Shown piece after piece: positions 28,115 to 58,509 of a stretch of DNA of 64,000 nucleotides (its first letter is position 1; the number at the start of each line of letters is the position of its first letter). The notes below the pieces were generated by a model, which was given only the letters and a program-made list of their open reading frames with translations, was not told the DNA's origin and made no database searches. This DNA comes from Spisula solida (Eukaryota; Mollusca; Bivalvia; Venerida; Mactridae). The DNA is taken from positions 17,132,089 through 17,196,088 of the forward strand of contig OX365956.1 of assembly GCA_947247005.1 (NCBI GenBank), in the 5' to 3' direction. Both the position numbers and the translations under genes were made by a program.

Positions 28115-28477
28115 ATGGCAGGAAACTTCTCTGATGTTAACTGGAATGACTGGCACGATGTGTTTCCTAACAGTAGTATAATGCTATCGGAAATACATTA
28201 TGATGAGGAATGTTGTTATCTTCTAAGTTCTGGCCATTTAGGAGTTCACAAAGCATTTATTTTGACCAGAAGGTGCAAATGTAATTGGTACCCAGACAAA
28301 TCTTATTTTCTGGAAGCCCGTTCAATTTCATTGTCCCAGTTCAGTGAAAATAGCGATGGTCTTGAATTACATATTGATCCCAAAGTAACATGTCGGTACG
28401 AAAACGGCCATTATGTTGGTGAGAGGAAAACATTGACAAGGAAATGTAATTGTCCTAGGGTCGTTGATGGAAGGTAA
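28115..28477 (+). CDS. Long-form two-half-domain Cys protein, member A1 (120 aa)
   Basis: Unrecognised family. The start at 28115 (cacaATGGc) aligns with the start of the other long members; an ATG four codons upstream is less likely. Half-domain 1 is C33 C34 -x19- C54-x-C56 and half-domain 2 is C93 -x17- C111-x-C113-P. Between them is the family core SISLSQF...DGLELHID (residues 70-88). The N-terminus has DVN and two Trp; there is no signal peptide or membrane segment, so a cytosolic protein is likely, and the Cys could bind metal or form disulphides under oxidation. The last codon AGG overlaps a donor (AG|GTAACT) and the stop TAA is in the intron. Splicing to 29620 would replace the stop with QNRSDP and a TAG. 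Confidence 0.75.
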   Translation: MAGNFSDVNWNDWHDVFPNSSIMLSEIHYDEECCYLLSSGHLGVHKAFILTRRCKCNWYPDKSYFLEARSISLSQFSENSDGLELHIDPKVTCRYENGHYVGERKTLTRKCNCPRVVDGR

Positions 28478-31208
28478 CTATAAATACATGCTACTTCATC
28501 TTTATTATTCAGGTCAGTCATTTGTTTACCTATCATTGCGTACAAAGGGATTGCAATGCTCTTTTAATATATATCACAAAATTATTATGTGGCTTCGTGA
28601 ATTCCAATGTATTGCAATGTTTGTATTTAAATGACAGGCCTAACGAATCGGACTGTACTAGCTCTATTATACACAAATATAGCAAACACCAGGAAACCAA
28701 ATACAGGTGCACATTCTCAAATGTGTCAATGTAAGTAAGTAAGGTTGTTGTTTTCATTGATTAATTGTAATTTCTGCACAATATCTAAGGCACATGGTAG
28801 GCAATCTGTAGCCATGTACTTAATAACAGGAGACTATTGTTTTATTCCATTACCTTAAACTGTAATTATTCTTGCGTATGTGTTATCAAGTCAAAACGAG
28901 AGGCGTTCAATATATAACGTCCATGTCATATGCATATTTATATGACAATATTTATAACAATTATGTGATAACTGTCTAAATTGCGTATGCTTCTTCTCTA
29001 TGTTTGTCTGGAAAATTACACAGCATTACGTCAACAATCAAGAAATGCATTGAACGAAATTACCAAACAACTGCATAACATACCACCAATTCAACTTAAC
29101 ACTTTGTATAATATTATATCAGCACATAAACATAATACAACCTGACAGAATGTGACTGTTACCAAAAATATAATACAATATCAGCTTTTTGCATAAGACA
29201 GACGAGACGTTTCATAAATAACACCTTCTCGACATATGACGAAGAAAAACATAGCTTATTTCATTGAGTAACATATCATATCTGTACCGAGACCTGAACC
29301 AGGATACTGGTATTCTATGCCACGATCTCACGAAGCATTTAAATATCATCTCATAAGGTCATATGTCTTTAAAATAACTCACAATTGGCATCACAAAACA
29401 GAAACGCTTACAATTATCCCAAGTTCAGCAGGCAGTGATTTTCTGCCTGAAATGCTTCGGCTGAACAGGACCACGCGAAAAACAAGTATTCCATCAATAT
29501 AAGTGGATTATTCAGATCGAAAAAGCTAGCATAATAAAAACGTTGGACATAAATCTACCGCACTAACATTTTATTAAATATTATATACATGTGTACATAT
29601 AATACAATTTACTTTACAGGCAGAACAGATCCGATCCATAGAGACTGCTTGTCTTGGAAAGAATTTGGACAATGGATTTGCATTCATCATTCAATGAAAA
29701 CAGCACGACTAGAAGCAAGGATGGAATTCAGTAATAACAAACTTTTGTAATTGAAACATGTGTAAATAACAAACATGAATACTTTTTTTTTGTGCGCAAA
29801 ATTATTCAATGGCACAAACAATCTAGATTTTACAAACATTCTGTACATTACATATTTGTTGAGAAAGGTTTTACGTAATTGCATATTAACTGTCTTACAT
29901 ATCGTGTCTGTATCGCAAATACTTGTAACTTGTATACATGTATTTGTTAAGTGATTAATCGATATACTTGTGTCTAATACATTATATGTATGGATTTGCT
30001 GTATTATGAAAATAAAACAACTTTACTACTTGAAACATTTGTTGAACTATGCTGCCTCAGTAGCTACTCAATAATGAGTAGCGTTCCTTTTTAGTATGTA
30101 ATGTGATAAAGGATTATAAGCATGCACATCCCACATTCATATCGAATATGTTACCCTAGACAAACGGCCAAACACGACCATAATCCATACATGTCAATAT
30201 GTTGGATGGAGATTATTCAAGGAAATTGGTTTGTCCTTTACGAAACCCTTGAGGTGTTATCCGGTGTCGATTGTTTAATGTCCTCGCCTATAGCAGCTAT
30301 GTAAAGTTTAATTTACATTTCAGTTATGTTAAGAGTGTTTAAACCATGCAAATTACATACGTCTGTTACAAATTTACGTTTGACCTGTTACACATAACAA
30401 ACAATGAGCATGTAATATTTTCCTGACAATATGTTCCATTGGGTTGCCTTCAAAAATGATTTGTAAATCATTTAAGCAAACTATTATACCAAGAAGGGTA
30501 TGAATGAATATATAACTATTTCAAATATATCACAATTACAAACAGATATCGTATCTTACTTGGGCAAAAGCCAATTTACCAAAAATGGAATGTCACACAA
30601 ACACCTATTTATATGTTAATCATTGGAAAACACACTTGAATAGAACGTTCTCGTAGTTTTCACACGGGTTATTTGACGTCCTAAATATAGTTTCCCTTGT
30701 GCAATACTGAACAATTCATATCAAGATCAAACATGTACGTTGACAATGATGAGATTAGTCAATAAATACTATGTCATTTGTGTCAACAGGGACGACATTT
30801 CCATTGATTTGGTTTGTTTAAGCAATTACATGCTTGCATTTGGCTATTCAAGAATACCAGGTTATTCACTAATCAATGCTTACACGAGGTCTAATATGAT
30901 TGCTACCAACATCATAACTGTATACTGAATTGGAATCATGAATTCATAATCAAGCAATGTTTTAAAACAAAAGTATGGTGAAGATCTTTCGTGAATACAG
31001 TTAGCGCTCAAATGTACAACGGCTTTCAATTCATACACCCCATAAATACTCACAATACATTCATGGTGTGCCTTGCCGTTGAAACCAATTGCTATTTATA
31101 GTACTTGGGAATTTTGTGTTCTCTATAGACGAAAATAATATGTAAATGAGTCTTAAATAATTATCTGGGCAGGTCGCCCATGGCCAAAATGGGCGGAGTC
31201 AACCATTG
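28478..31208. other. Spacer between A1 and A2, with a probable 3' exon of A1
   Basis: The only feature I support is an acceptor, TTTACTTTACAG|GCAGAAC (exon start 29620), in phase with the donor at 28473|28474. No gene is evident in the rest. Short open frames (30122-30304, 30740-30928 and others) show no family motif. Confidence 0.4.
29620..29641 (+). other. Putative C-terminal exon start of A1
   Basis: If intron 28474-29619 is removed, the frame reads R|QNRSDP and stops at TAG (29639-29641). The same arrangement, with the stop codon of the unspliced frame lying inside the donor, is seen at A2. Confidence 0.45.
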
Positions 31209-31214
31209 CACGTG
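31209..31214 (+). promoter_or_regulatory. E-box CACGTG upstream of A2
   Basis: TTGCACGTGGTT lies 118 bp before the ATG at 31333. It is a weaker match to the CACGTGACATG form of the short members. Confidence 0.35.
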
Positions 31215-31332
31215 GTTATCTAATGTAATACTAATACCAGTACAGTTTGGTTCAGGCTTTAGTACATGGTACACATAATACTTGAAGACAATTTAAGAAT
31301 ACATACAACTGCTGTACAACTTAACTTGAATT

Positions 31333-31704
31333 ATGGGATTGTTAGCTGATGCCAACACTTTGAACGTTTGGGATAAAGCATTTTTTGTGGCTCAACAAAA
31401 TAGTTCTGAAACACATCACGAAGACGACTGTTGTTACCACAGATGGACAGGTTGGCACATCATTGGAACTCCCTACAAGAATTTTGTTCTGATCAGGAAA
31501 TGTACATGCGGGGCTAAAACTGATAGACATAAACAACATGCCGGTTCGACTTCTATATCAGTACAACATTTCGAGAGGGACGGGCTTGAAATTCACATTG
31601 ATGAACATGAAAGATGTTGCTACCACCCAAAGCGTCTGCCAAATGGTACAATTAAACTAGAGAAAGTATGCTACTGTCCAAACACTAGAAATAAACTACG
31701 GTAA
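31333..31704 (+). CDS. Long-form two-half-domain Cys protein, member A2 (123 aa)
   Basis: Same family as A1 and A3. C33 C34 -x22- C57-x-C59-G is half-domain 1; C95 C96 -x16- C113-Y-C115-P is half-domain 2. The two halves resemble each other (CCYH...K.C.C in both), which points to an internal duplication. The linker has STSISVQHF..DGLEIHID (residues 72-90). The N-terminus is ADANTLNVW, with no signal peptide. The frame ends CTA CGG TAA, where CG|GTAATG is also a splice donor; joining to the acceptor TTTATTTCAG|GG at 32134 keeps the frame and adds ELQQQKYVNY before TGA (32165-32167). Which end is used cannot be told from sequence. Function unknown. Confidence 0.8.
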   Translation: MGLLADANTLNVWDKAFFVAQQNSSETHHEDDCCYHRWTGWHIIGTPYKNFVLIRKCTCGAKTDRHKQHAGSTSISVQHFERDGLEIHIDEHERCCYHPKRLPNGTIKLEKVCYCPNTRNKLR

Positions 31705-32084
31705 TGATATTATTTTTTGTTTGGATTGTCATTATGTGGATTAACCCAATGCAATGTTCAATATTTGATTTATAAGATAATGTTAACGCACCAGCTGTAT
31801 TGCATGTGGATCAGTGCTTATTAACATTACATATCATCACCTGACGACATCATTCGCCATTCTGGAACATAACAATTGCATATGTGGCCTACGTGATTGG
31901 TGATAACAGGCAATGAACACGAATCCACGTTAATACATTATCTAAGGTCCATCTCTGATTATAATTTTGATGTCGATGAGTAGATCGAATTGCAAGGTTT
32001 GCTTACTAGGTCCAACAATCGTAACATACATGTATTAGCTTTCAATGTTTTAATAACAATTCCGTAAGTAACATTAATGCTAGT

Positions 32085-33170
32085 ATAATAAAGTATTCAC
32101 AATTATATTTACTATGTTATTGCTTTATTTCAGGGAACTTCAACAGCAGAAATACGTTAATTATTGAGATACATTGTACTATAATTTAGAGCAACCCAGA
32201 ATGTGGTATTTAAGACATTAGATTATTTTAAAAATACATGAATTTATTGTATAAAAAATATTGAATTGAAATTATGTCTGCGACTTGTAAGGATTTGCAT
32301 GATGAACTAAAACGAATATATTTATTTTGTCCGGTATAAGTTATTAAAAACAGTATATAGTGGTTCAAATAATATTTCAATGTATAATTCATTGAATGAC
32401 CAGTGAAATATCAACAAAAGGAGAACTATAACAACGTGACAATTCCACCTTATACTTATCTAGACAAACAAGCGAATGTGTGAATGGCTTTATTAACGAA
32501 ACACAGTGGATCCAGCAGGAATATGAAGAAGAGACAGTACACAAACAAATTGATCACATTGTGAAACTGCTAAATCCTCCTATCATATATTGTCACATTT
32601 GTCTATGAACTTCTTGTTGTTTGAAATAAACTGTAAACTGTATATTCATGTAAAATACTTGGTTTGATCATTGGAAACAAGAAATTAAAAAGGGTCCGCC
32701 GCAGTTTCTTGTGAGAACTGATGTTCAAACTTAGTTCCAATTTTGACAATGTACAATATAAGAAACAGAAACATCTAAGAATTAATACAGGTCACCGTGC
32801 TTGTTTGGCAACGAATATGCAGATTTGGAGAAACTTGCTAGTATGTAACAATTTGACATACTAGAATAAGTTCAATACCGTATCATATCATCTAATTTAT
32901 TATACCATTATCAATCATAATTAGTATGTATTTCAAACGACTGATTCGTATGCTTACCAATGGATTCAAATACAAATATAATGCCATAAAGTACAAATAT
33001 TTGTTTTATTGTTATTTATCAATGTCTAGTTCTGAGTATATAATTCGATGCTATGTTGTTATACATGACGCACAATCGACGTCGAAAGTATACATTTTGA
33101 CAACCAAAAAGATGGTCTAATGACATAACCATTTTACCATATTGACAAAATTATAAAGAACATTATGCAT
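32085..33170. repeat. Duplicated 3' block, copy 1 (includes the A2 terminal exon)
   Basis: About 1.1 kb is collinear with 36388-37508. Shared landmarks are the acceptor and exon 'tgctttatttcagggaactt', 'gtgaatggcttta.taacg.a', 'cagtttcttgtg.gagctgatg'-like text and 'gacgtcgaaagtat'. It shows that the A2 gene and the gene at 35641 descend from one duplicated unit including their 3' exons. Confidence 0.85.
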
Positions 33171-35640: not shown

Positions 35641-35784
35641 ATGGCGGATGTTAATGAATACATAATTGACACTTATGGCGACTATACTTGGTGGTCATGG
35701 ATTAAATATTACATACTATTTGGATGGCTGAAACGTCTCATAGTTCCGAGGGGAAGGCCATGTGGTTCTAGATATGACGCATAA
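35641..35784 (+). CDS. 47-aa derivative of the array family, Cys scaffold lost
   Basis: The start ATG lies in 'ttgtataattATGGCG', which resembles the A3 start region ('ttgttatataattATGGCA'). The product begins MADVNEY (the family A-[DE]-[VA]-N motif), has a Trp/Tyr-rich middle TWWSWIKYYILFGWLKR, and then RGRP, which recalls the [RK]xRPxDRR end of the short members. Only one Cys remains (near the end) and all C-x-C motifs are gone. A donor AAAAG|GTAAAC (35797) after the stop and an acceptor at 36437 give a 3' UTR intron paralogous to that of A2. It may be a real mini-protein or a decaying gene that is still open by chance. Confidence 0.5.
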   Translation: MADVNEYIIDTYGDYTWWSWIKYYILFGWLKRLIVPRGRPCGSRYDA

Positions 35785-36387
35785 CAAAAATAAAAAGGTA
35801 AACAGATTATGTAACTACTTACAAACCTAATAATAACAAGTGAAACTATATTTGTAATAAGAAAATATATAATAACAGTATGCTAATGTTTGTAGAAGCA
35901 CCGTAAATTAAAGTAACCGACCTTCACATTGTGAGCATTTATTTCAATGTTATGTCTTGTTTGAAAATTCTTTCTGACATTTCCTATCAAATGCGTAGTT
36001 CTTTAGTTGCTTTTCATGTACATACAATAAAACGTAACACAATCTTAGTCAGACATAATTTTGTCAAGCGGGTACCAAAAAAAATCTACCCATACCGCAA
36101 GTCCTGTTTTAAAGGGCTAGGTTGTCATCCAACAATACTGTGTTTTATTCCCGTGTTTATGTACGCAAATGACATTCACTACGGTCGATTCATGATATTC
36201 CATGTATGGAAGGTTTGGTTGTTAGTGGTCGTATGTGATCATTGCAACGTACAATGAGTCCCCACAATGGTAACACGGTGGCCGAATTGTTAACGCTCTC
36301 GCCTACTAAATAATCTTGACATTCATGTATTACGAAGCTTCCAATGTATTAATAACTGACTCGATTAAAATTAACATTATTAGTTAT

Positions 36388-37508
36388 TTGAATAAACTAT
36401 TCACAATTCTTTTCACTATGACATTGCTTTATTTCAGGGAACTTCAACATACGAAACCTTTATTATTGAGGCAAGATACTACAATTTATAGGAACCAAGA
36501 TGTGATGTAAAAAACATTCGATCAGATAGTTTCATAATTACAAATGTACATGACTTTTTGTAAATAAATATAAATTAATTTATGTTTGTAACTATAAGAA
36601 TGTAACTTTAAGAATGTGCATAATAACATAATACATATACACTTATTTTGTCCGGTATAAGCTATTAAAAACAGCATAAAGTGGTTCATATATTAAGTGA
36701 ACGCATAGTCAAATAGGTAATTAGTGAAATAACAACAAATGAGGAACTTCAACAGCCGGACAAATCCACATTACACTAATCTAGACAAACAACCGAATGC
36801 GTGAATGGCTTTACTAACGGAACACATTGGATCCAGCAATAATAAGAAGAAGACAGAGTGCCGAAACGAAATGTTCACATTGTGAAACTGCAAAATGTTC
36901 CTAACATATATTTTCACATTGGTATATGACCTTCTGGTTGTTTGAAATAAACTGGAAACTGTATAATCATGTCAAATACTTGAAATGATAATCTGAAACA
37001 AGAAAGATAAAAGCGTTTACGACAGTTTCTTGTGGGAGCTGATGAATTGGGAAACCTCAATAATAGATTGTGTTCAAACTTAGTTTCTATTTGACAGTGT
37101 TCAACATAAACAACAGAAACATTTAAGAATGACTATAGGTAACCATGCTTGTTAAGACGTTGTCTGTCAACGAGTACGCAAATTTGAAGAAAAACGTTAG
37201 TACGTAACAATTTGACATATATGTGTTGATTATCATATCATCTACTTTATTATTTGATTACCAATTATAATTATTATGTATCTAAAACAATTCATTTTCT
37301 TACCAATGGGTTCAATAAACGTTACGTAGTACAAATAATTGTTTTTTTTATTATATATCATGGGCTGGTTTTGATCATATATTTGAGTGTTGTGTTGTGG
37401 TGCATGGCCCGCCATTGACGTCGAAAGTATGCGTTTTGCCAACCAAAAAAAAGATGGTATTATGGCATTATCATTCAGATAGACAAAATTATTAAGAACT
37501 TAAGCATC
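36388..37508. repeat. Duplicated 3' block, copy 2
   Basis: Collinear with 32085-33170; holds the acceptor TTTATTTCAG|GGAACTTCAAC (exon from 36438), the 'agacaaaca.(c/g)cgaatg.gtgaatggcttta' stretch and the 'gacgtcgaaagtatgcgttttg' stretch. Just before it (36262-36300) is a degenerate tRNA-like A-box fragment. Confidence 0.85.
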
Positions 37509-41794: not shown

Positions 41795-42145
41795 ATGGCA
41801 TTACAAGCAGAGGTAAATTCTATGCCGGGATGGCAACCAGCATTTGTGAGGTCTTGGACGCAGGGAGGTGTTGAACTACACGATACAGAATGTTCATTTA
41901 AAAGGATTGAAACTTTTATTATTGTCGGACGGCAAAGAAAGATTTACATTCTCGTTAGAGAGTGTACGTGTGGTCGGTTTGCCAACAAATACAGACGTCT
42001 AAAGCGTGTACTTCCTGTTGAAGACTTCAATGACGGAATTGAAATACATGTCCACGAGGCGTGCAAATATAAACCGAAAAGATTACCGAATGGACAGATA
42101 AGATTGGAAAGGTACTGTATCTGTCCACGGTCAATAGCGCAGTAG
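41795..42145 (+). CDS. Long-form two-half-domain Cys protein, member A3 (116 aa)
   Basis: C33 -x23- C57-x-C59-G is half-domain 1; C90 -x17- C108-x-C110-P is half-domain 2. The linker is VLPVEDF.DGIEIHVHEAC. The second half (KPKRLPNGQIRLE) is nearly the same as in A2 (HPKRLPNGTIKLE). The N-terminus MALQAEVNS links the long members to the short ones, which start MPxRAEVNS. No signal peptide; several Arg/Lys in the linker. After the TAG there is a strong donor AAAAT|GTAAGT (42157) and an acceptor CTTTTCAG at 42397, so, as in A1, A2 and 35641, an intron sits at or just after the stop. Function unknown. Confidence 0.8.
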   Translation: MALQAEVNSMPGWQPAFVRSWTQGGVELHDTECSFKRIETFIIVGRQRKIYILVRECTCGRFANKYRRLKRVLPVEDFNDGIEIHVHEACKYKPKRLPNGQIRLERYCICPRSIAQ

Positions 42146-44756: not shown

Positions 44757-44969
44757 ATGCCTACTCGGGCTGAAGTAAATAGTTATTACCATCGACAATC
44801 TTGCAAATTCAAAATAGAAGGCGGAAAACTGTACTTCTATTGTGCTTGTTGGTGGCTGGGCTTTCTATTTTGGTACACTAAAATATACCACTCCGACAGA
44901 AGATGTGAAATTCACAATCACGAAATAACATGTTATTGTGCGAAAGGTCGACCAGTTGACAAGCGTTAA
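44757..44969 (+). CDS. Short-form Cys/Trp protein, member B1 (70 aa)
   Basis: The start at 44757 (acaaaATGCCT) is the one shared by the other short members; an upstream in-frame ATG is not conserved. The N-terminus is MPTRAEVNSYYHR. Cys pattern: C16 -x12- C29-A-C31 -x18- C50 -x8- C59-Y-C61. After C31 comes WWLGFLFWYTKIYHSD, a very hydrophobic aromatic segment that could insert in or lie on a membrane. The C-terminus is KGRPVDKR. Single exon. It is the same two-half layout as the long members, with the 30-36 residue linker shortened to 18 residues rich in Trp. No signal peptide. GTCACATGG at 44667-44675 may be a degenerate form of the family E-box. Confidence 0.75.
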   Translation: MPTRAEVNSYYHRQSCKFKIEGGKLYFYCACWWLGFLFWYTKIYHSDRRCEIHNHEITCYCAKGRPVDKR

Positions 44970-47900
44970 TATACATTGGATGTCAGAAAGTGTTATTTGG
45001 AACACTAGTGTTATGGACATATTAAGGGGCGATGACAATGTTGGTAAGAAAATAAAAGCGTACCAACCAAAATAGACGAAACAGTTTTTTGTTCTAAGGG
45101 TGGATTCCGAAAAATGTTTAAATATTATATTTTGTTGAATACGAACTGTTGTTGAATTGTTTATGAAATTAGCCATGGAATCATACTTTGTCTGGATAAT
45201 AAAAATATACATGTAGTTACATTTTGGTTTGTATATTTGCAGTGTTTTATAAATATGCTTCGTTCCAAATGTCATGACATACACATGCATACTTCTTATG
45301 TCACTTTTTAATATATTATATAAACACTCAAAATATTGACTATCGTTACACAACACTACATTGAATACACTTTTACAACGGTTTTATGAGTGCGGGATAA
45401 TTGGAAAAGACAACAAGTTAATTATGTTTTAGTTGAGATACATGGACATGTTATAGTCGGATTCAAGTGATGTCAATTTCATGTACGCCAGACAGTAGAT
45501 AACGTTTTCGATAGAAACGCTTTACACATAATTACAAAATGTATATTAATATAAAATTATTAAGTTATTTTTCATGAAATTAATTATTCTATAATAATTC
45601 TTTCAATTAATGCAAAATTATTTCAAAACGAATAATGCATTAAGCGTCATAATTGATACTGTTAAATCATTAACTTTCGCGGGAATTGAATTTTGCGGAT
45701 TTTGGTAAAATGGTAATTTAGGGGGTTTTCAACTTCGTTGAACTAAAGTATTGAAAGAAAAATCTCAATATTTTGAGGTCAATTATTAGAGGGGATTTAT
45801 GTTCCCGATCTAACACATCGGGGAAATCAACCAAAATTAGTCCACCCGAATATTGATAATTTTACAGTATTTGCTAATGATTTATATTGTCTTGTGGATG
45901 TATAGTGTGGACCATATTGAAAATTGGTCTAGAACCAAATATGTCAACTACAATAAATAAAGTCGTTATTATTATTATTAATATTATAGTGTACATATAT
46001 CATGCCATCGACATCTCCAGAAATGTGATATATGTCATTATTAGCATCATTGTAAGTACTTTATACATACATTATCAAAATCAACATAAAATTATTAGAT
46101 CTGTAAAAGTATCATGCCATCGACATCTTCAGTTCTGGGAGAACTTGGGAAGAAGTAATTATCAGTATCACAGTAAGTACCTAATGCATACATTATTACA
46201 ATCAATATAAACTTATATTAAAGTATCGTAATTATGTTCAAGATATCGATTCTTCAATATTACCTAAATATCGATTTTTTCACTGGCCAAATACCACTCA
46301 ACTGGTTTACAACAGGGAAATTAAAAATGTTTACAGTGACAACGATTTAAAAGAAATGCTGTAAAAACACACTAGAGATATAAAGTAACTTCACACTTGA
46401 TATAATGAGCATAATATACAGTAATGCTGCTAAAACTGAATATGTTGCAAGAGCACCCACGTGTTTTTCAAATAATATTGTAGTTTTCTTAAAAGAATGT
46501 GTTTAGACTGTGAAAAATATTAAAGTTATTTTTGTTGGAAGAACATGTAAGGGTATCCGTCATTAAACATCGTATTTAATATGATTAAAGGGTTAAATAA
46601 TGTCTTCATGATGGAAAAAATAAAGCCAACCATCGACCTCTCCGGTTCTTGGAGAATTCTGATAAAGTCAGTATGATTATAAATGTAAGCACCAAATACA
46701 TACATTATTACAATGAACATAAAATAATTGGATAATCCCGTTATTATTATGAAGATATGTATTGTTCAATATTTGCCAAATATTACAGTTTCATTGGATA
46801 GACACCATGTAGCTTGTTTACAGCCCGTATGATTAAGCAAATGAATACTTAATTATAATGACATAACTTTGCGAATCTTGAAGCTTGTTTAAAACCAAAG
46901 AAAAATAAGAGAAATTACAATGCAATGATAATGACACAATGTTTATAAAAATGAATTCAAGAAAACATTGCAAATATGTGTACTAACGTCTCAAATGATT
47001 ACACAAGAACTAAAAACAATGAATAAATATCTAGCTAAAGTAAGCCTTCACGGAACGACAATCTTAAAAACAGCACCATTTCTGAATAAATAACACATTT
47101 AACGAGTCGATTTTCACTCGTGTAATCATTATTAAACCTCAATAGTTAAAACAACAAATAAAGAACACAATTTTTAAAAGCCCCAATGTTGTAGAATCAA
47201 TATACACAGTATATGCATTATTTGAAACTTGGTTGTGCACCAACAAGCAAACAGAACAAATAAAGGTTCCCGAAAAATATGCCGCCATAAAACAGCGTTA
47301 ATGACTGCATAAAGCCATTAATATAAAACAATAAAATGTTGTACCCTAGAAAATCAAATAAAAAAGTTGAATATGAAATTAATGGTACGAAATTTCTGAA
47401 AGTCGTTCGTCTATTTTCAATGACCTCGTCGTTTTGGCAAACGGAAGAGCTTTCATATGCAAGAGATACAGTTCTTTCAATTGGTCTTTTTCTTTTTTAA
47501 GCAACTATCTGTTTCTTCCGCCCAATCTCTAGAACACGTTGGAAGGTACCAGTACATATTGCTAAACTGATTGGCGCTCAATTTCTATGTCTTTTGTTCG
47601 CTTAAAAGTTCAAAATACACTCCTTCGCTCGGTAGAAACTAAACGAATCAGCTGCTTACTAGTATAAATACTAGAATTTATCACCGATAGATATAATACG
47701 TAAAGGCAAATACTTTTTTTAATAATGGATTTTATGCGTTCTATTACATATGACTATATTGTTGTGCTTAGATTCTGGTCAACGTCGATTGCATCATATA
47801 TTAGTGCGATCTCCTCGTGACTACTGTCTGACGTAATACACATGATAAAAATACGATATTTTATTACATATACGTGTAATAACAACCCGTTCAAATTAAA

Positions 47901-48067: not shown

Positions 48068-48078
48068 CACGTGACATG
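48068..48078 (+). promoter_or_regulatory. Family E-box CACGTGACATG (B2)
   Basis: ATCACGTGACATGG, 79 bp before the ATG at 48157. The same 11 bases occur before B3 and before the broken copy at 56757. An AT-rich TATA-like stretch follows at 48091. Confidence 0.6.
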
Positions 48079-48156
48079 GTACAGGTCATACATATATCTG
48101 GTTTGTCAACCAGCATAGCGCATATCGTTCTGCGAGACTATACATTACTTAACAAA

Positions 48157-48351
48157 ATGCCTAGTCGGGCAGACGTGAATAGTTACGAATTGAGGAAACC
48201 GTACACATACAAAAGGAAAGGCAGAAATAGTTACTCATTTCTGAATTTGTTTTGGCTGCTAGGTTTAGAAGAATGGTTCACCAGTTTTACTAAACACAAA
48301 AGGGTGAGAAGGCGTAGGTTCCCTAAAGAAAGGCCACTTGACAGGCGGTAA
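48157..48351 (+). CDS. Short-form paralogue B2 without any cysteine (64 aa)
   Basis: The frame is open and both ends are conserved: MPSRADVNSY at the start and KERPLDRR at the end, the latter matching B4 exactly over RPLDRR. The middle has no cysteine: the first Cys is replaced (PYTY for SCHF), the C-A-C becomes L-N-L, and the region of the fourth Cys and the C-Y-C is replaced by a basic run VRRRRF. The hydrophobic segment FLNLFWLLGLEEWFTSF remains. The promoter E-box is intact. It may be a gene under changed function (a basic, amphipathic peptide) or a copy that lost constraint recently. The last codons CGG TAA TGG also form a weak donor-like GGTAAT. Confidence 0.6.
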   Translation: MPSRADVNSYELRKPYTYKRKGRNSYSFLNLFWLLGLEEWFTSFTKHKRVRRRRFPKERPLDRR

Positions 48352-51140
48352 TGGCCATTGGATGCTAAGAAACAACAAAATGACTGTTCATACGAAGAGC
48401 TGAATAGAAACAATGAATTTATCGAGAGGACACTTGGTATAACAGCAATCATCATAGAAGAAAATATGCGTCTTTTAATGTATTTAAATACCATTCAAAA
48501 CATTGCGTTTGATGCCTTTCAACGATTAACTACTCCTATCATTTACTCAAAATTCACATGAGATCATCATATGCTGTTTCTTCTGGAAAATTGGACTAGA
48601 CTTACAATAAAGAAATATAAATATTGATTTACATTTAATTATATTAGCACTTGCTTTGTTATATGATTATGATATAAATAGTGTAACATAAGTGTAATAG
48701 TGTACATCTTGTTATTTGATCATGTCTACTATAAATTATGTCTGTAATACCATAATATTAAATTAGTTGGTCACTTCAAAATTATTACCATTGTTTGTGT
48801 ATTTATCTGTAAATCTAATGCATGGATATTTCATATATATATTTGGATAGCTAGTGTACTAAGACATAGCGGTACAGGTAAGTGGTGTGTAACAATATGA
48901 TGCGACTTTGTTTAAATAAATGTATCATACGCCCGTATGTTGCATAAAAGATGAAAACAAAATGATGGCGTATGTGCAGTTCTGGATTATCGACCGGTGA
49001 TATCAACAAAAAGGTATCAAATAGTTTACAATCCAAATGTATATGTACCAACCTACATAATGTAATTGAACAATATTTCTCACGCACGTCTTTACCACCC
49101 TTACAGAAAGGAGCCTGAAAAGTCCAAATTAAATTACTTATTGGCAAAATGTTGTCATGTCATGTAATGTTATGGATGTCTTGTCAAAACTAAATTCTAG
49201 TTCGATAGGTTGCGATAGTTATTTGTATTTTCTTTGATGGAAGGTGCGGGTGTAAAAATTACAAAATAATGAACTGATGTCGAATATTTACACTTTCGAT
49301 TTACTTTCTGTAATATTTTACTCCAAAAAGACTCCCATTTACATGTAGCGCAACGTTATGGCACTGTTTAATGGCATTATGTACCAATTAACAAATACAA
49401 TTATCAATAACTTTTTAGTCAACCGATTCCCCAAATCCACGGTTTCAGTTTATATTTTGAAAGGTATCATTTTGCGTCATATTCTGGAAAACAGTGATTT
49501 ACACCTTAAACACAAGTTACAACATACCTATCACAACTTATTTTTATCAAATAAACGCATTAATGACAAAGTTGCCTACATGTATAAATTCAAAAAAATC
49601 ATGCTTTTTATTATTTTGTAAGGTTTTACTCATAAAAAGTCGACTTAGCATGAAATGACCTGATTTTTTGTAGTATGATACAAGACACAAGTAATGTGAC
49701 ATGATCAAACAAATGTTGTTTGCATTTTTTCCTCAAAAACATCTGCTTGCTACTGAATGCGGTTTTCCCAAATAACGTTAGTTTTTGAAGAGGTTGGAAA
49801 TCGCGCCGCAAAGCTCATATACAGTAAATCTGCCAATAACTTTATATTTTATATGGGTACCTATGTTCTTTATTAATATTTCAAATGTCTTACATGAAAT
49901 TATTAACACAGTGAAAAATCTTTAAAGTATGTTCAAATGAAGAGCCTGCCAGATCCGTCTTAAAATCCCATAATTAGTACGTTTGAAGAAAGCGTTAGAT
50001 ATTGTCTTCATGATAAAAAATGTAGTGCGCCATCGACATAACCAGATCTTGAAGGATTTGTATTTTACTCTGAATTAGTATCGACGTATGTACCTACTAC
50101 CTACAAGATTACTATCGACAGCAAATTATTTGATAAAACTTGTATTATGCACGAGATATATATTGTTCAATAATTGTCTAATATAATATTTTCTCTGCCC
50201 GATACCATGCAGTTTGTTTACAACTAAAGACATATAAGAATATTAAAATAAATTATATCGTCTTGATTTTTGTAGATATGGTTAGGAATACACTATTGCT
50301 ATATTAATGACTTAGCATATAGTAACACAAACAAAATATACGGTAAACCTTTACTGAAAGTCCACCTTAAATATAGCATCCGTTCGCAATTGAGAACAAT
50401 TTTGTCAAATTAACACATTAACACTTTATGAAACCTAACAAATAATGTAACCAACTCTGAATGATAGCTGTTTGTCAAGAGGGAAATATAACACACGTAG
50501 GTTCCTATAAGATACCCGTTACTCGTTCACATTAAAACAGAGAACATAGCAACATGAAACAATAATTAGAACAATAAACGTTGTGTCATACACAATTACA
50601 TAATATATATAAATAAATAGGATTTCAATGGCATGCCATTACTGAAAGTCGTGGTAATTGTTCAGGACATAAATAATGGCTAGGAAACACCGAGACGAAA
50701 TATTTAAAGGTATTTGATTGACATTGTTTCATTGCTTCAGTTGCGTTAGTTGTGAAGATTCTAAATCATGTTAATTATATCACATAGTTCTGTTAGGATC
50801 ATGAAATTTTCTGAAACGTCCCTACATTTTGATGGTTTCCGAATATTAAGGAAGGTTTAACGACCTCTTGAACTCAGTTATTTGACCCATACCCAAAACC
50901 ATACCCTACGGACAACCATTCACTACCGTCCATGAACTGTTTTTCAGTGTATTTGAACTTCTCAAGCAAGAGCCGAGTTCATCAAATTGGTAAATAACTT
51001 CACTTCAAATGACCTAATTCACAGATACATCCAAGCAACAACACTGTCTTCGAGTTTTTATTAGATAAACTTGTTGACACGTCAACATGTTATCTTAGTA
51101 ATCATACAGCTAATTCGGTGCAAATGACATACTGGTAGTC
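48352..51140. other. Spacer with the second copy of the upstream block
   Basis: AATAAA at 48607 may be the B2 polyadenylation signal. 49890-50800 is collinear with 46480-47640, including 'gtcttcatgataaaaaa' and the 'gccatcgac' word at 50029. No gene recognised; open frames at 49358-49621 and 48851-49147 lack motifs. Confidence 0.5.
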
Positions 51141-51169
51141 ATATGGGTTTCCATATGGTGTTAAGCTGC
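51141..51169 (+). promoter_or_regulatory. Recurrent palindromic upstream motif, instance 2
   Basis: ATATGGGTTTCCATATGGTG followed by TTAAGCTGC, 230 bp before B3; 'tatgtcaaggtcacaatatcacattat' -like text follows, also shared with 55.4 kb. Confidence 0.6.
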
Positions 51170-51302
51170 AACAGAAGATACTTCATCTGTATGTCAAGGT
51201 CACAATATCACATTATGTAACGTGTCATTTGTAGAAATTATAATTTAAATATAATACAGATCATGGCTTAGTTTCATTTTATTGACGTAGCCATTTTAGA
51301 GA

Positions 51303-51325
51303 CACGTGACATGTTTGTATATATA
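51303..51325 (+). promoter_or_regulatory. E-box plus TATA core promoter of B3
   Basis: CACGTGACATG (51303-51313) is followed four bases later by TATATATA (51318-51325). The ATG is at 51371, so the 5' UTR would be about 20 bases. Confidence 0.65.
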
Positions 51326-51370
51326 GTCGATTTGCCTTAAGTCACAGTTGCAGTTCTCTTATTGTACAAA

Positions 51371-51589
51371 ATGCCTTCCAAAGCTATAGTTAATAGTTAC
51401 AACCATGGGTCACGATGCGGATTCAAAAAATGTATATTTCGGAGAGGACAGTATTTCTATTGTGCTTGCTGGGCGCTTGGCTTTCTACAATGGTACGCTA
51501 CGATATTCCACTCCGACAGCAGATGCTGTATTCACAATGGCAGAGTAACATGTTATTGTCCGACCGATCGACCAGATGGCAGGCGTTGA
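51371..51589 (+). CDS. Short-form Cys/Trp protein, member B3 (72 aa)
   Basis: Start acaaaATGCCT as in B1 and B4. The N-terminus is MPSKAIVNSYNH. Cys pattern: C16 -x4- C21 -x9- C31-A-C33 -x18- C52 C53 -x7- C61-Y-C63-P, that is, the six family Cys plus two extra. The segment WALGFLQWYATIFHSDSR follows the C-A-C; the C-terminus is DRPDGRR. The nearest relative by eye is B1 (HSDxRC.IHN....CYC shared). Single exon, no signal peptide. The promoter has the clearest E-box/TATA pair of the array. Function unknown. Confidence 0.75.
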   Translation: MPSKAIVNSYNHGSRCGFKKCIFRRGQYFYCACWALGFLQWYATIFHSDSRCCIHNGRVTCYCPTDRPDGRR

Positions 51590-51702
51590 TGTTCATTGCG
51601 TGTTCAAAACTGTTTATTGGAACAATGTAGTTAAAAAAGAATAGAAACAATAACGATACAATCAAAGAAGTAAAAAAGAGGGAAAAGTGTGTATACCATT
51701 GT

Positions 51703-52286
51703 GATAAAATGTTATTCGAATGTCAGTTGTAACAACTTTAAACGTTTGCTCTATGATTAACTAGGTTTTACACGCGGATTCTGTTTGACTAAACTTAGTA
51801 TTGATGCTTCTTAACAACTATTACAATGTGGTAACTTTAATATTTATATTTGTTTTTATCATGTATGTAATTGCAATATAATCAATTTAATTTGTTACAT
51901 AGTGTTACCACGTGTTTATATAGACAAATAGAATACGTATATTTCTGATGGAACTAAAGAGCGTGTTTTCGCTTTCGCGAAATATATTGAAAACGGACTT
52001 ATCTTACGGCTCAATACACCCGATTGCAGTGACCTATTCAAATAAGACAATCCTACGATGATTGCATACATGAACACTTATAACTGCACATTGTAAAATG
52101 TTCTTCGAATATGAGTTGTATCAACTGCAAACGTTCGCTCTGTGATTAACTATGTTTTACACACCGATTAAGATTGACTAAACTTGGTATTATTGCTTCT
52201 TCAAAACTATCCCAATGTGGTTATTTTATCATGTATGCAAAATTGCGATATATAGTTAATTTAATGTGTTACAAATCGTTACAACT
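51703..52286. repeat. Tandem duplication of about 205 bp downstream of B3
   Basis: 51703-51908 and 52085-52286 share 'aaaatgtt.ttcgaat', 'gttgta.caact', 'gctct.tgattaacta', 'gactaaactt' and 'ttatcatgtatg'. Period about 380. Non-coding. Confidence 0.8.
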
Positions 52287-55200
52287 GTTTAATGTTTTTA
52301 CGTAATGAGCAAATAAGTTTTGACTTGAATCGAATGAAAATCAGTACCATCACAATATCGGGAGATATATCGGGTTATCATTTCATATAGAAAAGAAAAT
52401 ACTGACGGCTGTGTACGTAGAAATAATGACTGTATGTTGATTATCAAATCGTGAATACGGTTGTGCCTGGAAGTGTGTATTTCTGTCACGTCTTGATTTA
52501 TGTATTCATAAAACAAATTGTCCTATGATTAATTAAATATATCTGAAAACTCACAAGCTGTATTTTATGTATGTAACCATTGCTTATTCAATACTTGACT
52601 ACTATTTTATGACTTTTTAAATATTATTAACTGTTCATGAACTAAATATTGTAGTACAGCGTAAACATCCAATCAAATTGCAGTGTTTGGTCATTCGACG
52701 TTTGATATAATAACTGTACCCTATTTCAGTACAATGATTCTTAATTACAGAAGTTGTAACATATTGGATCATAGAAATGAATGTTTTAAATGTTAAGATT
52801 TGCACAGTATACATGTATATTCAATGTGATATTTTATCGTACAAACATTGGAGATTTGTCGAGTGTGGTTGGTATAAATGTAGTCATTTCATACTCATGT
52901 TCACAGATAACTGTATCATTAATAAAGAGTAAAATAAAATTATTTTATAAAATTCATGTTATCTTAAAAAGTTGCATTATTTTTGTACTAAAGTTGTCAG
53001 ACTTTCATGGTATCAAAAACAAGGATTGGCTTTCGATATCTTTATAAAGAAATTACATACATACGCAACATTGTTTGAACTACCTCCATGCGAAATCCCA
53101 TCGAAATTGTTCAACTAGTTAAAAAGTTATATCATTAAATGTATACATGTACCGTGGTATATATTTATATTCACTAAGATGCATTCAATAGAAACGACAA
53201 TGCTATTCTAAACAATAAAAAAGAATGTGATTTCAAGCCCTATGGGTTAATTTCTAATATCAAATTAAAGACAGAGCTCTCCAGTTTCTGATTATGTAAA
53301 TATATTTAGAATAACACCAGCATTAATGAAATGTTTATTAAAAACACACTGCACCTCGGTGACTTAGTGGTCAATTTCCCGTGTTATGACCATTTCTAAG
53401 ATATTATAATTTGTACGACAAAATGTTTTTGTTTGTTTACTCTTTACAAATGATACAGTTACATGTACTCAAAATATGTCACACTACAAATGTGTGTTAC
53501 ATTATAGTATGCAGTAGGAATTGCACAAACCAACATGCATTTTGGTAGACACTCAAATGAATTTAAAGAACTTTATAATGTAACGTAGATACTGTCTATG
53601 GATTATATGTAATTGAAAAAGAGGTAATTGAATTGCTAATGGTAGCACACCATCGACTTCAACAGTTCTTGAAGGAGTGATGGTTGATAAAAAAACAATG
53701 TCAATATAAATACCAAATATCAACCTGTTTTCTGTCAACTTAGTTTAAATGAAGATGTAACGATATTAATCATGCATAATGTGAACATACTTGACAAAAG
53801 GATAATACTAATCGAACAGAGACAACCGCGTGGTAAACTGTTACTATTTATAAAAGCCAATATCAAGACTAACTCCAATAGTTCCAAACCATCTAATATG
53901 ATACGCAAATTTTGGCAAAGAACCCAAGTAAAAATATGATAATACAAAGTTTAAAACAATCGTAAGTATTTTTAAATTATTATTTGACCAATTTTAGCGA
54001 GACACCGTCGACGACCAAACCACGAATAAGTATTATCAACTTAAACATGTTCTACAAAAGGTCACATTTGTTTGCCTGAAACCCACTCGAATGCTAAGAT
54101 TGTACTTGTTGGGTTCGGGCAAAAACTGTGACATTCAACAAATAAATATTAAGTGGAACGGATTATATTTATTCTCGACTTGACCGTCGAGGATGTCACG
54201 TTGAAATCGGTTTGATAAATAAAATACTAACGATTGATTCAAACTTTGTCTTCGCATATTTTTACTTGCGGTGTTAGCCAAAACTTATGTCGCATACCAC
54301 GTGGAATGTCCACCCTGCTTACGGAAGCAGTAGCATCAGTGTAGCAATACCACGTGACTTTTAACTACAGCTACAAGAAGAAATTTGTAAACATTGGAAA
54401 CTAAAAAAGCCATAAGTAAATAACCTAGTGAAGCCATGAAACGTGTAGGTTTCACAGTGTAATGGAATAATCGGTAAAACTGCTGAAAAATACATTACAT
54501 TTCACGGAAAGCAAATACTTTTCTCCTTAGTGTGGCGTATATTTTATAGAAATCGATTAAGAGATAAAATACTTATAGCTAAATTTGTGTTCCAATGTTT
54601 ACACATTTATACTTGTAACTGTAGCCAAAAGCAACGTGATTGCTACCCTGAGCATTACTCTAGTGAAATTTGGCTGTGTATCGACATGAAAACATTACAA
54701 ATGGAGATTCACATACAATATTCGACACAATATCACACAATAAAACAGCGGAAATGGCAGCAGGAAACTTAATTGAACAAAAACTAACGGTGTACAAAGA
54801 TGTACCTTCAACTACCACATTAAAAGAATTTGTAAAGTTTTAAAAGATGCCATTACAGAAAGATTTTGAATCTCTGTTTGATAAAAGTCTTATATCGAGG
54901 AACTGTTACAGTTTCAGTTAAATTAGTTGTTCCAACTCTGAAACATATTGATTTATTACATATGTTCGCCACGATAATACGGGTTTTCGGGAAATTTCTT
55001 AAATTTCGGTAATTTCCAAATGTATAGGCACCTTTAATTGTTATGCGTCTGTGTAATATTTCGATATGTTAACATAAACAATTATTGGTAACTGTTTTTC
55101 AAACCATATACAAAGGAGAAACATCAATTGTAGGTAAACACTTTCTACGGGATTGTCCGAGAACAACACAATGGTATACAGTTGAAATTAACAAGCATTG

Positions 55201-55348
55201 CAAATGTTTATTATTTAGGTTAATGATTTCTCTTTAACATAATTCACAGATACTGCCTACGGGTTTAAACCAGCTAAAATTGTAGACGTGTGACCATGTT
55301 TATTATACAGTTTAGGGGTCACTGTATGTATGTGCAAATGGAGGAGTA
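52287..55348. other. Spacer, with a possible remote exon of the family
   Basis: 53645 has another 'caccatcgac' block word, so part of the duplicated upstream unit is here. An open exon-like stretch at 54530-54772, without an ATG start and with CTCCTTAG just before it, encodes HIYTCNCSQ and, 28 residues after the C-N-C, MEIHI; the long members have C-T-C-G and EIHI at a spacing of 27. This could be a diverged family exon, but the match is short. A degenerate tRNA-like fragment lies at 53351-53390. Nothing else is supported. Confidence 0.35.
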
Positions 55349-55370
55349 ATATGGGTTCCCATGTGGCGTC
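55349..55370 (+). promoter_or_regulatory. Recurrent palindromic upstream motif, instance 3
   Basis: ATATGGGTTCCCATGTGGCG, followed by 'tatgtcatgacaatttcaca' and 'acgtcacattatcttat' that align with the text after instance 2. Here it lies 1.4 kb from the broken gene at 56757, so extra DNA has entered the unit or the nearer gene was lost. Confidence 0.55.
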
Positions 55371-56665
55371 AATATCCAACTGCGTACAGGTTGTGTATAC
55401 TTATATGTCATGACAATTTCACAACGTCACATTATCTTATATGCTGTTATATAGCTTCGGGAATCCAAATAATACATGGCAGTACAGGTAATAAAGTACA
55501 TGAGCTCAACATATGAAACAATCTCTTTATAACCTGTACGAGCGACACGTGTATTAAACCACTACTCTATTAAACGGCCAATTTAATTCCCACCCGAGCG
55601 ATGTCACTATATTTTCTTTCTTTCTGTATATACTGCTTAAGCCCCTTTCGGGTAAACTTCAATCGACATTTTTATTATCCGACAAGCGACTTATATTTAA
55701 ACTGGTAGCATATATTAAAATACAAACCACTTTAAAGATTTGCATAAAAAGGGGAAATGTTAGCACTTACTAAACGATTTGAGGCTAACGCTCCTCTCGT
55801 AAATTAATTCGGAGTGCAAAACAACATTTATATGTGGATTAAATGCGTTAAAAACTGTAAACATAAATCTTCCAAGCAGTTGTAAATTTTAGTACATTAC
55901 ATAACTGATTTTTTTAGAAAAGGGGGAACACTGCAAGAAATATCTGCCTGACTGACACTCTAAATGGTGGCTTCTTGTAATTTTGATTATATATATTTGG
56001 AGGTTGTTTTTTACAAATAAATATTTTTATTTGCGAACACGTAATATTTCTCTGTTGCTTAATTTTACTCCCAGTACACATGCAAATTGTATACATTATG
56101 CATCAAAACAAAATTCGTGTGTAAGTGTAAAAAGACAGTTTAATAAAATGTTTCGAAAATACGTAAATTGTTGTTTTGCATTACTGTTAACGAGTAACAG
56201 TTGCTCTTAAATCGTATGTCTAAGTGCTAATAAACCCAACCTCACCGTAAAGTTTGACTTGCTTTTAAGCACAAAGTGGTCTAGACTTTAGCAAATTGTG
56301 TCTTAGGAGAACGAGAATCAAACAAAACATTCAATGCTATACTTTCCAAATAAGCCACAGTCCTTTGGTTCATCAGTCATCCGACAAATGACGACATCGT
56401 GTCAATGGATTCCATACGCATACACTTGAATGTTTCGAAATTTAGCAGCAGCATTGATGATATTTTAATACTTGCACAACGTTTTTTTCATCGGTTAGGC
56501 ATATCATATGTAGGCATATTACTTGTGTTAAAGTCGTCGGTAGTACATTTGTACATGTTTTATTGGATTACCCTGTATGTCTCACTTTGTTTTAATAAAA
56601 TGTCGAAATGTTTTATTTGTCTGTGTCATATAGTTATACGATTCAGATCTAATGTAGCGTTGGAT
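55371..56665. other. Spacer, no gene recognised
   Basis: Open frames at 55983-56210 and 56399-56680 carry no motif. Apart from the first 150 bp, which are homologous to the region upstream of B3, I see nothing to name. Confidence 0.4.
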
Positions 56666-56694
56666 CACGTGACATGTTAGTAGATATATATATA
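56666..56694 (+). promoter_or_regulatory. E-box plus TATA in front of the broken copy
   Basis: CACGTGACATG (56666-56676), then GATATATATATA (56683-56694). The spacing is nearly that of B3. The promoter is intact even though the gene behind it is frameshifted. Confidence 0.6.
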
Positions 56695-56756
56695 CAATAC
56701 ATCTCATAATTAGTCTAATAGCAAAACTGACTTGTGAGGAAATAGTATTGTGCAAA

Positions 56757-56971
56757 ATGCCTACACGGGCTGAAGTAAATAACTATAAGCATTGGCGACG
56801 ATGCACATTCAAAAACAAATATGGGGTTCACTATTTTGATTGTGCTTGCTGGTGGTTAGGTTTATTTAAATGGCATGCTAAAATATACCACCAGAGTTGG
56901 GATTGATTTTAGATCGCAGAATTATTTGTTTCTGTTCGAGGGAAAATCCGGTTGGCAAACGTCACATGTAA
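56757..56971 (+). pseudogene. Frameshifted short-form Cys/Trp copy
   Basis: ATG at 56757 opens MPTRAEVNNYKHWRRC, then YFDCACWWLGLFKWHAKIYH, all clearly family. The frame then stops at TGA 56904-56906 after 49 codons. In the +2 frame the missing end continues from about 56909 as LDRRIICFCSRENPVGKRHM to TAA at 56969-56971, matching the CYC...RPxDRR end. A small indel around 56893-56905 has removed the fourth Cys and split the frame. With an intact promoter and little other decay, the break looks recent. Confidence 0.8.
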
Positions 56972-58293
56972 GTAGTGTCAATTGAATGATGAAAGACGTC
57001 TTGTTAGCAACAATAGTATTGAACTATATGACGAAGCGTGATAAAAATAAACCAGTGTCGATCATAGAGTAATAACTGTATCAACCATCACAGAGGCAGA
57101 CATGAGCGCTTTACATTGTGTGTGGGATTTATGACAACGACCACAGCTTTTGATGAGAACTGACAGAAGAGGTCACTTAGAAAAACTGTTGATTTAGATG
57201 TTTTTTCAGTCTTAATCTTTACTTGCGTAAATACTTTATTTCTTACACGTGTTTATTATTGTAAAATGTCGATTATGTAGCAAGTTGGTCATTCCATATT
57301 TCCCAGACCCAAAGTATTGTTCCGAAATAAAACATTATCAAAGAAAAAACACGTTGTACGAGTATGTTATGTTTTTAATCTGAAAAGCTTACAAATGGAC
57401 ATGAAAATTGGATATCTGAAGAAATGTATACTAGGAGAAAATAAGACGGGTAAATTTTGTCCAGTTCTAAATGCACGGTTATTAGGGAGTATAATAACAG
57501 TAGTTACGTAAATATTATGCCTCACAATGATCACATGGAATGCATCATTGATATATTGTTACAGTGTATATTGCAAATTACAGAGCAATATTCATGAACA
57601 TGACATCCAGAAGAAACGGTTTAGACGAGTATTAATTAATCTTATTTCGATTATCATTACGTTTTGCATCAAGGACTTACAATGTTACGGACCATTTTCG
57701 TCCAATCTAATAGTACAAAATGATGAATTCTCGATATGTAAGTTGCACTTTCAAGTAAATGAGTTATATGAAACAACGACTTCTCTGGTGGAGTAATATT
57801 ATATTACCCTTGTCAACATGTGTGCCTTGGTCGATGATATCCCAGTACATACCTTACAGATTTTAACTCAATTAATAAACGTTTGAATTAGTTTGAATTG
57901 GTCATATAATAAAGTACACATATTTGCAGTAAGAAATATAAAGAATCTTAAGATTAGCAATTTTACACATTGTTATTATTAGATGGTATTTATCACAATA
58001 TGGCGTATATGCTAAGTGCTATACTGTTTCCAAAAAGAGGGGAAATCCCAGAATTGTAAACGATAGACGATATATTTTTCTAACTTTACAACCAACCTTA
58101 TGTGATTTACGATGAGCAATATATATTCAGTTGAAAGTGTGCAAAAATAGCAACCAATACTACGTAGATTACATTCTAAGTAACCAATCCAAATGCAATA
58201 TTTGGTCATGTGATGCATAATCAAATGTTGTCAAAAAGTTCGTAAACGGTTAACACATATGGTTAACGGTGATACAACGATTGGCATTACAAA
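56972..58293. other. Spacer between the broken copy and B4
   Basis: Open frames at 57317-57511 and 57527-57796 have Cys but no family motif; the phrase LQMDMKI at 57389-57409 resembles LQMEIHI at 54698-54718, and nothing more. A TCATGTGATGC word at 58206-58216 may be a degenerate E-box of B4. Confidence 0.35.
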
Positions 58294-58509
58294 ATGCCGT
58301 CTCGTGCGGAAGTAAACGGATATAACCATCGCGATAGTTGCCATTTTGAATTAAATGGCAATGGGCAACTATTCTATTGTGCATGTTGGTGGTGGTGGTG
58401 GCTAAGATGGTTCGCAATAATACGTCACTCAAGTAGCAGGTGTTACGTTAACAGAAACAAAAAGATTGTGTGTTACTGTTCCAGACAGAGGCCGCTTGAC
58501 AGGCGTTAA
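58294..58509 (+). CDS. Short-form Cys/Trp protein, member B4 (71 aa)
   Basis: Start acaaaATGCCG. The N-terminus is MPSRAEVNGYNHRDSC. Cys pattern: C16 -x12- C29-A-C31 -x18- C50 -x9- C60-Y-C62. Immediately after C31 there are five Trp in a row (WWWWWLRWFAII), encoded by a TGG/GTGG run that probably grew by slippage. The C-terminus is RQRPLDRR. No signal peptide, single exon, AATAAA-like words downstream (58567-58575). It is the last family member in the window. Membrane interaction of the Trp segment is plausible but inferred only. Confidence 0.75.
   Translation: MPSRAEVNGYNHRDSCHFELNGNGQLFYCACWWWWWLRWFAIIRHSSSRCYVNRNKKIVCYCSRQRPLDRR

Follow-up and report, generated by a model that had tools for sequence, protein, structure and literature searches.

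A tandem array of small proteins with a doubled H-C-CxC module in the bivalve Spisula solida

The tandem array and its reading frames

The window analysed here is a stretch of 64,000 nucleotides (nt) of the Spisula solida genome (NCBI GenBank assembly GCA_947247005.1, contig OX365956.1, positions 17,132,089 to 17,196,088 of the forward strand), which holds a tandem array of small genes; all positions below are those of the window. The array comprises three long copies (L1 to L3), five short copies (S1, S2, S3, S4b and S5) and an open reading frame (ORF) of 47 amino acids, D, as a tentative member. It appears to be a genuine gene family that evolves rapidly, and the unifying feature of its two classes is a doubled H-C-CxC module. 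The units are as follows, with isoelectric points (pI) for two of them.

28115..28477, plus strand: L1, long member; 120 amino acids, two H-C-CxC modules, pI 6.3
31333..31704, plus strand: L2, long member; 123 amino acids, two H-C-CxC modules
35641..35784, plus strand: D, tentative derivative; 47-amino-acid ORF, Trp-rich, one Cys, no His
41795..42145, plus strand: L3, long member; 116 amino acids, two H-C-CxC modules, exactly six Cys
44757..44969, plus strand: S1, short member; 70 amino acids, two modules, aromatic segment
48157..48351, plus strand: S2, short member; 64 amino acids, Cys-less, pI 11.2, with N-terminus, aromatic segment and RPLDRR tail kept
51371..51589, plus strand: S3, short member; 72 amino acids, two modules
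56757..56906, plus strand: S4b, truncated short copy; 49-amino-acid ORF, first module only
56907..56962, plus strand: second-half remnant of S4b, out of frame; S5 residues 55-71 match 56912-56962 by tblastn, with DNA alignment
58294..58509, plus strand: S5, short member; 71 amino acids, two modules, run of five Trp (W5)

An initial annotation of this DNA had proposed nine related plus-strand units, and all nine ORFs open at the starts it gave; eight are related, but the membership of D is tentative. Its broken copy at 56757 was borne out by tblastn and DNA alignment as the truncated S4b with its downstream remnant out of frame. No further clear member was found in the window by tblastn of all nine (matches outside the array had E values of at least 0.14), and the best unexplained match within the array was that of L3 at 51623 (E 0.024). 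The motifs proposed for the two classes fared unevenly. The long motif DG[LI]E[IL]H[IV] is present in all three long members, and MP[ST][RK]AxVNSY is exact in three of the four short members to which it was assigned, but S5 has VNGY. The tail xRPxDRR is exact in S2 and S5, but of the same four S1 ends RPVDKR and S3 RPDGRR. The motif A[DE][VA]N, said to join the classes, lies near the initiator Met in seven of the nine units, L1 (SDVN) and S3 (AIVN) departing from it; elsewhere among 286 ATG frames of at least 40 amino acids it does not occur. Because D and some motifs are not fully upheld, the array observation is rated as partly confirmed. Start contexts are class-specific, being AATTATGG in L2, D and L3 and CAAAATGCC in all five short copies; that of L1 is different.

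The absence of signal peptides, also claimed initially, could be established for five of the nine genes (L1, L2, D, L3 and S5). In these, an in-frame stop lies 6-33 nt before the ATG (33 nt in L1, 6 nt in L2 and 24 nt in S5) and the interval is free of AG, so that in-frame splicing of an upstream exon to a canonical acceptor is impossible and a hidden signal-peptide exon was rejected. In S1, S2, S3 and S4b an AG occurs between stop and ATG, and an upstream exon is formally possible. No strongly hydrophobic N-terminus was found by Kyte-Doolittle hydropathy in any unit; the best window of L2 starts at residue 1 with a mean of just 0.67.

The doubled module and coding constraint

The pattern H-x(3-6)-C-x(7-23)-C-x-C occurs twice in all six intact Cys-bearing members (L1, L2, L3, S1, S3 and S5), and S4b retains the first module. 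When the double pattern was applied to the 179 stop-to-stop ORFs of at least 60 amino acids in the window (92 on the plus and 87 on the minus strand), exactly these six fitted, a count that gives specificity within the window and is no independent test, since the pattern was derived from the same proteins. The hallmark of the family is this doubled module, common to both classes, and not the general Cys/Trp-rich layout of the initial annotation; strong aromatics are found only in the short class and D. In each class two conserved His precede the first Cys of each half, the first His shifting by one residue in the long class; the probability of such a placement at random is 0.013 (short) and 0.0085 (long), for windows chosen post hoc. 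The two halves of the long-class profile are alike (z 4.2, 0/1000), also with Cys held fixed (z 3.35, p 0.007). In both classes, low-confidence AlphaFold2 models from three-sequence alignments (S1, predicted local distance difference test (pLDDT) 57 and predicted template modelling score (pTM).46; L3, pLDDT 46 and pTM.33) have two pairs of neighbouring strands, which for each half bear its first Cys and its CxC. Each module is probably a beta-hairpin with one zinc-type CCCH metal site, and we infer metal rather than disulfide bonding.

The eight ORFs other than D are beyond doubt related within their own class, as judged by alignment. Long members matched each other by tblastn with E values of 5e-24 to 8e-24 (L2-L3), 4e-11 to 7e-11 (L1-L2) and 3e-6 to 4e-6 (L1-L3), and S1, S3, S5 and S4b matched mutually with E values of 2e-8 to 2e-23. 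S2 matched S1 (E 5e-7 to 7e-7) and, more weakly, the other short copies (3e-4 to 0.09). Across the array the coding sequence (CDS) is conserved far more than the flanks: over shuffles, CDS alignments of the ten short pairs reached z 5.4-17.6 where their flanks gave -2.1 to 4.2, and those of L2-L3 and L1-L2 reached 5.6 and 7.6 against -2.2 to 1.5. Furthermore, the proportion of synonymous differences (pS) exceeded that of nonsynonymous ones (pN) in 13 of 15 pairs (Nei-Gojobori, bootstrap <0.05), comprising nine of ten short pairs, all three long pairs (in L1-L2, pS.71 vs pN.45) and one of two pairs with D; because the alignment is guided by protein and several synonymous distances (dS) have reached saturation, only the sign of this difference is used and not its value. 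The pairs without significance were S1-S3 (dS.43, nonsynonymous distance (dN).31; bootstrap 0.198) and L2-D (0.057). Chance ORFs were rejected as an explanation on the tblastn matches, the excess of pS over pN, the conservation of CDS over flanks and the double-module pattern.

The link between the long and short classes rests on profiles, which support the single related array that had been claimed. Profile comparison gave z 4.8, reached by 0 of 300 shuffles, and z 3.7 (0 of 300) with the Cys columns fixed. For D the evidence is mixed. Its protein matched S2, S5 and L2 locally at p 0.017-0.036 and S1, S3, L1 and L3 without significance, and its CDS aligned no better than chance with L2 (z 1.9) or L3 (z 0.8). 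With the Met as anchor, D scored z 5.6 against L2 and 4.3 against S2, with no signal for the other six; it shares MADVN and the start context TATAATTATGGC with L3, identically. Given the weak protein matches and a DNA alignment at chance level, D was downgraded from a certain to a tentative member.

Short members, array history and genome setting

Short members carry an aromatic (Trp/Tyr/Phe-rich) stretch around and right after the first CxC and are basic (pI 9.1-11.2). The interfacial energy of the best 16 residues was -13.7 kcal/mol in S1, -9.3 in S3, -14.8 in S5, -7.8 in S4b, -11.8 in D and -6.2 in S2, and -1.7 to -4.8 in the long members, so that a strong aromatic segment is confined to the short class and D. 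This segment, together with the basic RPxDRR-like tail, makes membrane binding probable. The Cys loss noted initially was confirmed in S2, which has lost all six Cys and His12 (the first His), and retains the MPSRADVNSY N-terminus, the aromatic segment and the RPLDRR tail; each of its four pairs with short members has pS above pN. The joint loss of Cys and His, of which S2 is the one sure case, appears to fit a metal site better than disulfides.

Growth of the array by duplication, as first suggested, is supported by spacer blocks that recur after or before members, including pieces at 50458-51216 before S3 and 54664-55435 before S4b. Four blocks lie after members:

32014..33170, plus strand: spacer repeat copy A, after L2; partner 36309-37507, 72.6% identity
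36309..37507, plus strand: spacer repeat copy B, after D; partner 32014-33170
46414..46870, plus strand: spacer block after S1; partner 49817-50270
49817..50270, plus strand: spacer block after S2; partner 46414-46870

The S1 and S2 blocks are offset from the gene starts by 1657 and 1660 nt. The pair at 32014 and 36309 was considered as proof that D was copied from L2, and this use of it was dropped. Counted from the start codons its offsets agree (681 vs 668 nt), whereas counted from the stops they do not, and over 900 nt downstream of L2 and D there was no collinear alignment; it may therefore be another repeat. Among the short copies, S1-S3 has the lowest dS (.43), with values of 1.47 and 1.68 for S2 vs S1 and S3 and of at least 1.24 for every pair other than S1-S3. 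The upstream and distal downstream flanks of S1 and S3 match little (z 0.7 to 1.8; 4.1 in the first 60 nt after the stop). The low dS across an intervening S2, with flanks that barely match, makes gene conversion between S1 and S3 across S2 probable on these alignments.

Upstream of five of the nine units, 68-124 nt before the ATG, lies the hexamer CACGTG:

28005..28010: CACGTG, E-box-like hexamer, at -110 of L1
31209..31214: CACGTG hexamer, at -124 of L2
48068..48073: CACGTG hexamer (TCACGTGACATG), at -89 of S2
51303..51308: CACGTG hexamer (ACACGTGACATG), at -68 of S3
56666..56671: CACGTG hexamer (TCACGTGACATG), at -91 of S4b

Near-variants occur before S1 (CACATG at -88) and S5 (CATGTG at -87), and the hexamer may control these genes. 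The string ACGTGACATG lies at 48069, 51304 and 56667, 67-90 nt before three short genes; neither strand of the window has it anywhere else. TATA-like and poly-A-like strings are found in part of the units only.

The window has a G+C content of 29-39% in 2-kb bins and held no transfer RNA genes and no Rfam matches. Pfam, searched with ten ORFs that do not belong to the family, gave a single match above cut-off and three below it. The former is a reverse-transcriptase ORF at 5747-7648 on the minus strand (633 amino acids stop to stop; RVT_1, E 4.7e-33), which by its look we take to be of a non-long-terminal-repeat element. Two open frames at 2756-3698 have no Pfam match and may resemble a repetitive ORF of marine invertebrate genomes. 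Duplicated blocks lie upstream of the array at 11203-11629 and 16245-16675 (90% identity) and at 14185-15778 and 17022-18975 (pieces of 76-93% identity), the latter block containing a 165-bp tandem repeat at 17086-17409. Direct repeats in or near the array pair 39087-39233 with 40292-40435 (89% identity) and 25804-26121 with 26346-26652 (81%).

Interpretation and comparison with known systems

It is quite possible, if somewhat short of probable, that the array encodes leaderless, probably intracellular proteins with two CCCH metal hairpins, a short subclass of which acts at membranes. On this proposal, tandem genes whose reading frames are complete and single-exon would give rise to small leaderless proteins of two consecutive modules, and the long members (116-123 amino acids) would perhaps stand near the ancestral form. 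In the short members both sites would have been compacted, and a Trp-rich membrane-interfacial segment gained that, with the basic RPxDRR-like tail, would probably bind membranes. From S2, which lacks the metal core but retains the tail, the N-terminus and the aromatic segment, one may suppose that function lies in these three parts and that the core serves as a scaffold. Growth and decay of the array through truncation, duplication of segments and, probably, gene conversion would resemble those of lineage-specific defence or stress clusters. The earlier interpretation, which had likened the array to fast-evolving effector or stress gene clusters, is partly supported, an effector or stress role being putative.

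A number of observations weigh against this proposal. Similarity between halves within a single protein was found only in L1 (p.004;.22 in L2 and.17 in L3), and the halves of S1, S3 and S5 show no likeness beyond Cys; an internal duplication in the short class was considered and found unsupported beyond these residues. Extra Cys occur in L1, L2 and S3, and two Cys triplets, that is six Cys, could form three disulfides. In the low-confidence models three of the four modules have the last Cys of CxC a little beyond the end of the strand, and Foldseek/VIA with the low-confidence S1 model returned no usable match, where absence from VIA excludes nothing. As to the joining of the classes, individual long-short pairs reached p<0.05 in just 3 of 15 cases and individual modules across classes in 3 of 18 (the second-module coordinates of L2 and S3 being off), and hhalign gave P of about 0.01 and a probability of about 4% (one C-terminal, one N-terminal match). 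The protein-guided alignment is biased towards low pN, several pairs have saturated dS, and pairwise tests are unable to show constraint on S2 itself. S2 also retains one His, which in alignment A2 lies two columns away from the second site. The Kyte-Doolittle maxima over 19 residues (0.4-1.1) are low for a transmembrane helix, and the leaderless call was made from upstream stops, an AG scan and Kyte-Doolittle values. Finally, D and L3 have no upstream CACGTG, and the binomial p of 1.8e-5 for this hexamer is nominal, for the best six-mer, and becomes ~0.04 after ~2000 six-mers; the promoters of the short genes share descent.

Searches for relatives returned no named domain family, in line with the initial annotation. 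None of the nine proteins scored above any family's gathering cut-off in Pfam-A, and at E values up to 10 no Pfam family was found for them (EGF models included) save a sub-threshold Endothelin match to L1 (E 2.4). Nothing credible came from PHROGs, queried with eight proteins (S4b left out), where the best E values of 0.38 and 0.65 were taken as chance, or from the PDB, searched by sequence with L2, A1 and A3, where nothing was better than E 0.32. Scans of viral contigs with L2, A3, A1, S1 and L1 gave no confirmed relatives; there were likewise none in prokaryote contigs with A1 and A3 or in phages with the L2 protein. A literature search at the level of titles and abstract openings turned up no recognised description of the family, and a text search for five peptide strings, a weak test, found no mention. 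Because the collections searched (Pfam, PDB, PHROGs, phage, viral and prokaryote) include no animal protein set, the novelty of the family is unproven.

That the family is already annotated in animal databases under another name, which would be compatible with the other readings, is therefore a possibility to be reckoned with, though on the improbable side: animal proteomes are missing from the collections, and lineage-restricted protein families are common, while the Pfam result, E values of at least 0.38 in PHROGs and 0.32 in the PDB, and the lack of literature string matches, weak as that test is, speak against it. The array could also be decaying and unexpressed, its ORFs remnants of an old family or mobile element and its constraint a relic. 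One truncated copy, two Cys-poor ORFs, duplicated spacers and the mobile-element ORF elsewhere in the window would suit such a history, which nevertheless appears distinctly improbable given complete double modules in six of nine units, coding conservation far beyond the flanks, the sign of pS-pN in 13 of 15 pairs and start contexts that are class-specific and shared.

Two further explanations concern the proteins themselves. The six-Cys arrays, the aromatic basic short forms and a duplicating array with a Cys-less member would also be expected of disulfide-stabilised extracellular antimicrobial or toxin-like peptides that are released leaderless, by lysis or unconventional secretion, and whose Trp/Arg-rich short forms disrupt membranes; the CRP-I family of mussels (Mytilus) likewise has Cys-less members, those of group lambda (PMC10138031). 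This is unlikely, in that an in-frame leader exon is impossible in five of nine genes, CRP-I genes are multi-exon with a conserved signal peptide and propeptide (PMC10138031), and a conserved His beside each Cys triplet is unneeded for disulfides. Small nucleic-acid-binding zinc proteins, acting as lineage-specific regulators through CCCH hairpins and basic tails, would account for the CCCH ligand sets, the pI of the short members and the missing leader in five of nine genes. They are nonetheless a rather remote prospect: no Pfam match rose above cut-off, L1 is acidic, an aromatic segment is, as a matter of general knowledge, unusual for such proteins, and the Cys-less S2 has an intact frame with pS above pN in all its short-class pairs, a signal inseparable from that of its partners.

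Returning to leaderless metal-hairpin proteins with a membrane-acting subclass, a bolder claim, with a small chance of being right, is that the array represents a new architecture: a doubled, single-exon, leaderless H-C-CxC metal beta-hairpin that gave rise, inside a single array, to Trp-rich effectors active on membranes, one form shedding the metal core and keeping the membrane segment and termini. Lineage-specific, fast-evolving gene arrays are a main source of new animal effectors, among which the small Cys-rich ones that have been studied well are secreted. If true, the claim would mean an animal-lineage invention of intracellular membrane-targeting effectors, seen at intermediate stages. 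With leaderless members ranging from a complete Cys/His double module to a Trp-rich form devoid of Cys, it would be possible to test gene by gene in which order fold, metal site and membrane segment were gained and lost, and the double module is a searchable signature for relatives in animal genomes.

Among known systems, the EGF-like beta-hairpin has the spacing C-x(n)-C-x-C, the C3-C4-C5 part of EGF domains, which the C...CxC hairpin spacing of the array resembles; the array proteins lack both the secretory setting and the three remaining cysteines of EGF, and have no Pfam EGF match. Metallothioneins are likewise small and leaderless with CxC, whereas the array proteins have few Cys, many aromatics and no Pfam match. 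In their aromatic-basic segment the short class and D resemble Trp/Arg-rich membrane-active peptides, but here the segment sits in a Cys/His scaffold, and its activity is only putative. SWIM zinc fingers, whose ligand order is CxCxnCxH (PMC11216215), also combine a CxC pair with a CCCH set, and across its modules the array reads CxC-x(n)-H-x(4-6)-C; the His here precedes the Cys, the spacing is wider, the SWIM order is absent, and there is no Pfam match.

The nearest parallel found, by analogy, is Mytilus CRP-I. CRP-I proteins have a signal peptide, a propeptide, coding exons 2-4, the Cys order C-C-CC-C-C and the defining array C(X3-6)C(X1-7)CC(X3-4)C(X3-5)C (PMC10138031). By eye, from Cys positions, no member of the Spisula array has that arrangement, and stops 6-33 nt upstream in five of nine genes together with the Kyte-Doolittle values indicate no signal peptide and propeptide of this type; instead, the array has H-C-CxC twice in one-exon frames, with a leader exon impossible in those five. 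CRP-I is nevertheless described as a multigene, diverse family of small Cys-rich proteins with module duplication within the protein (PMC10138031), and the two families are alike in comprising multigene, small Cys-rich proteins with a duplicated module and a Cys-less member.

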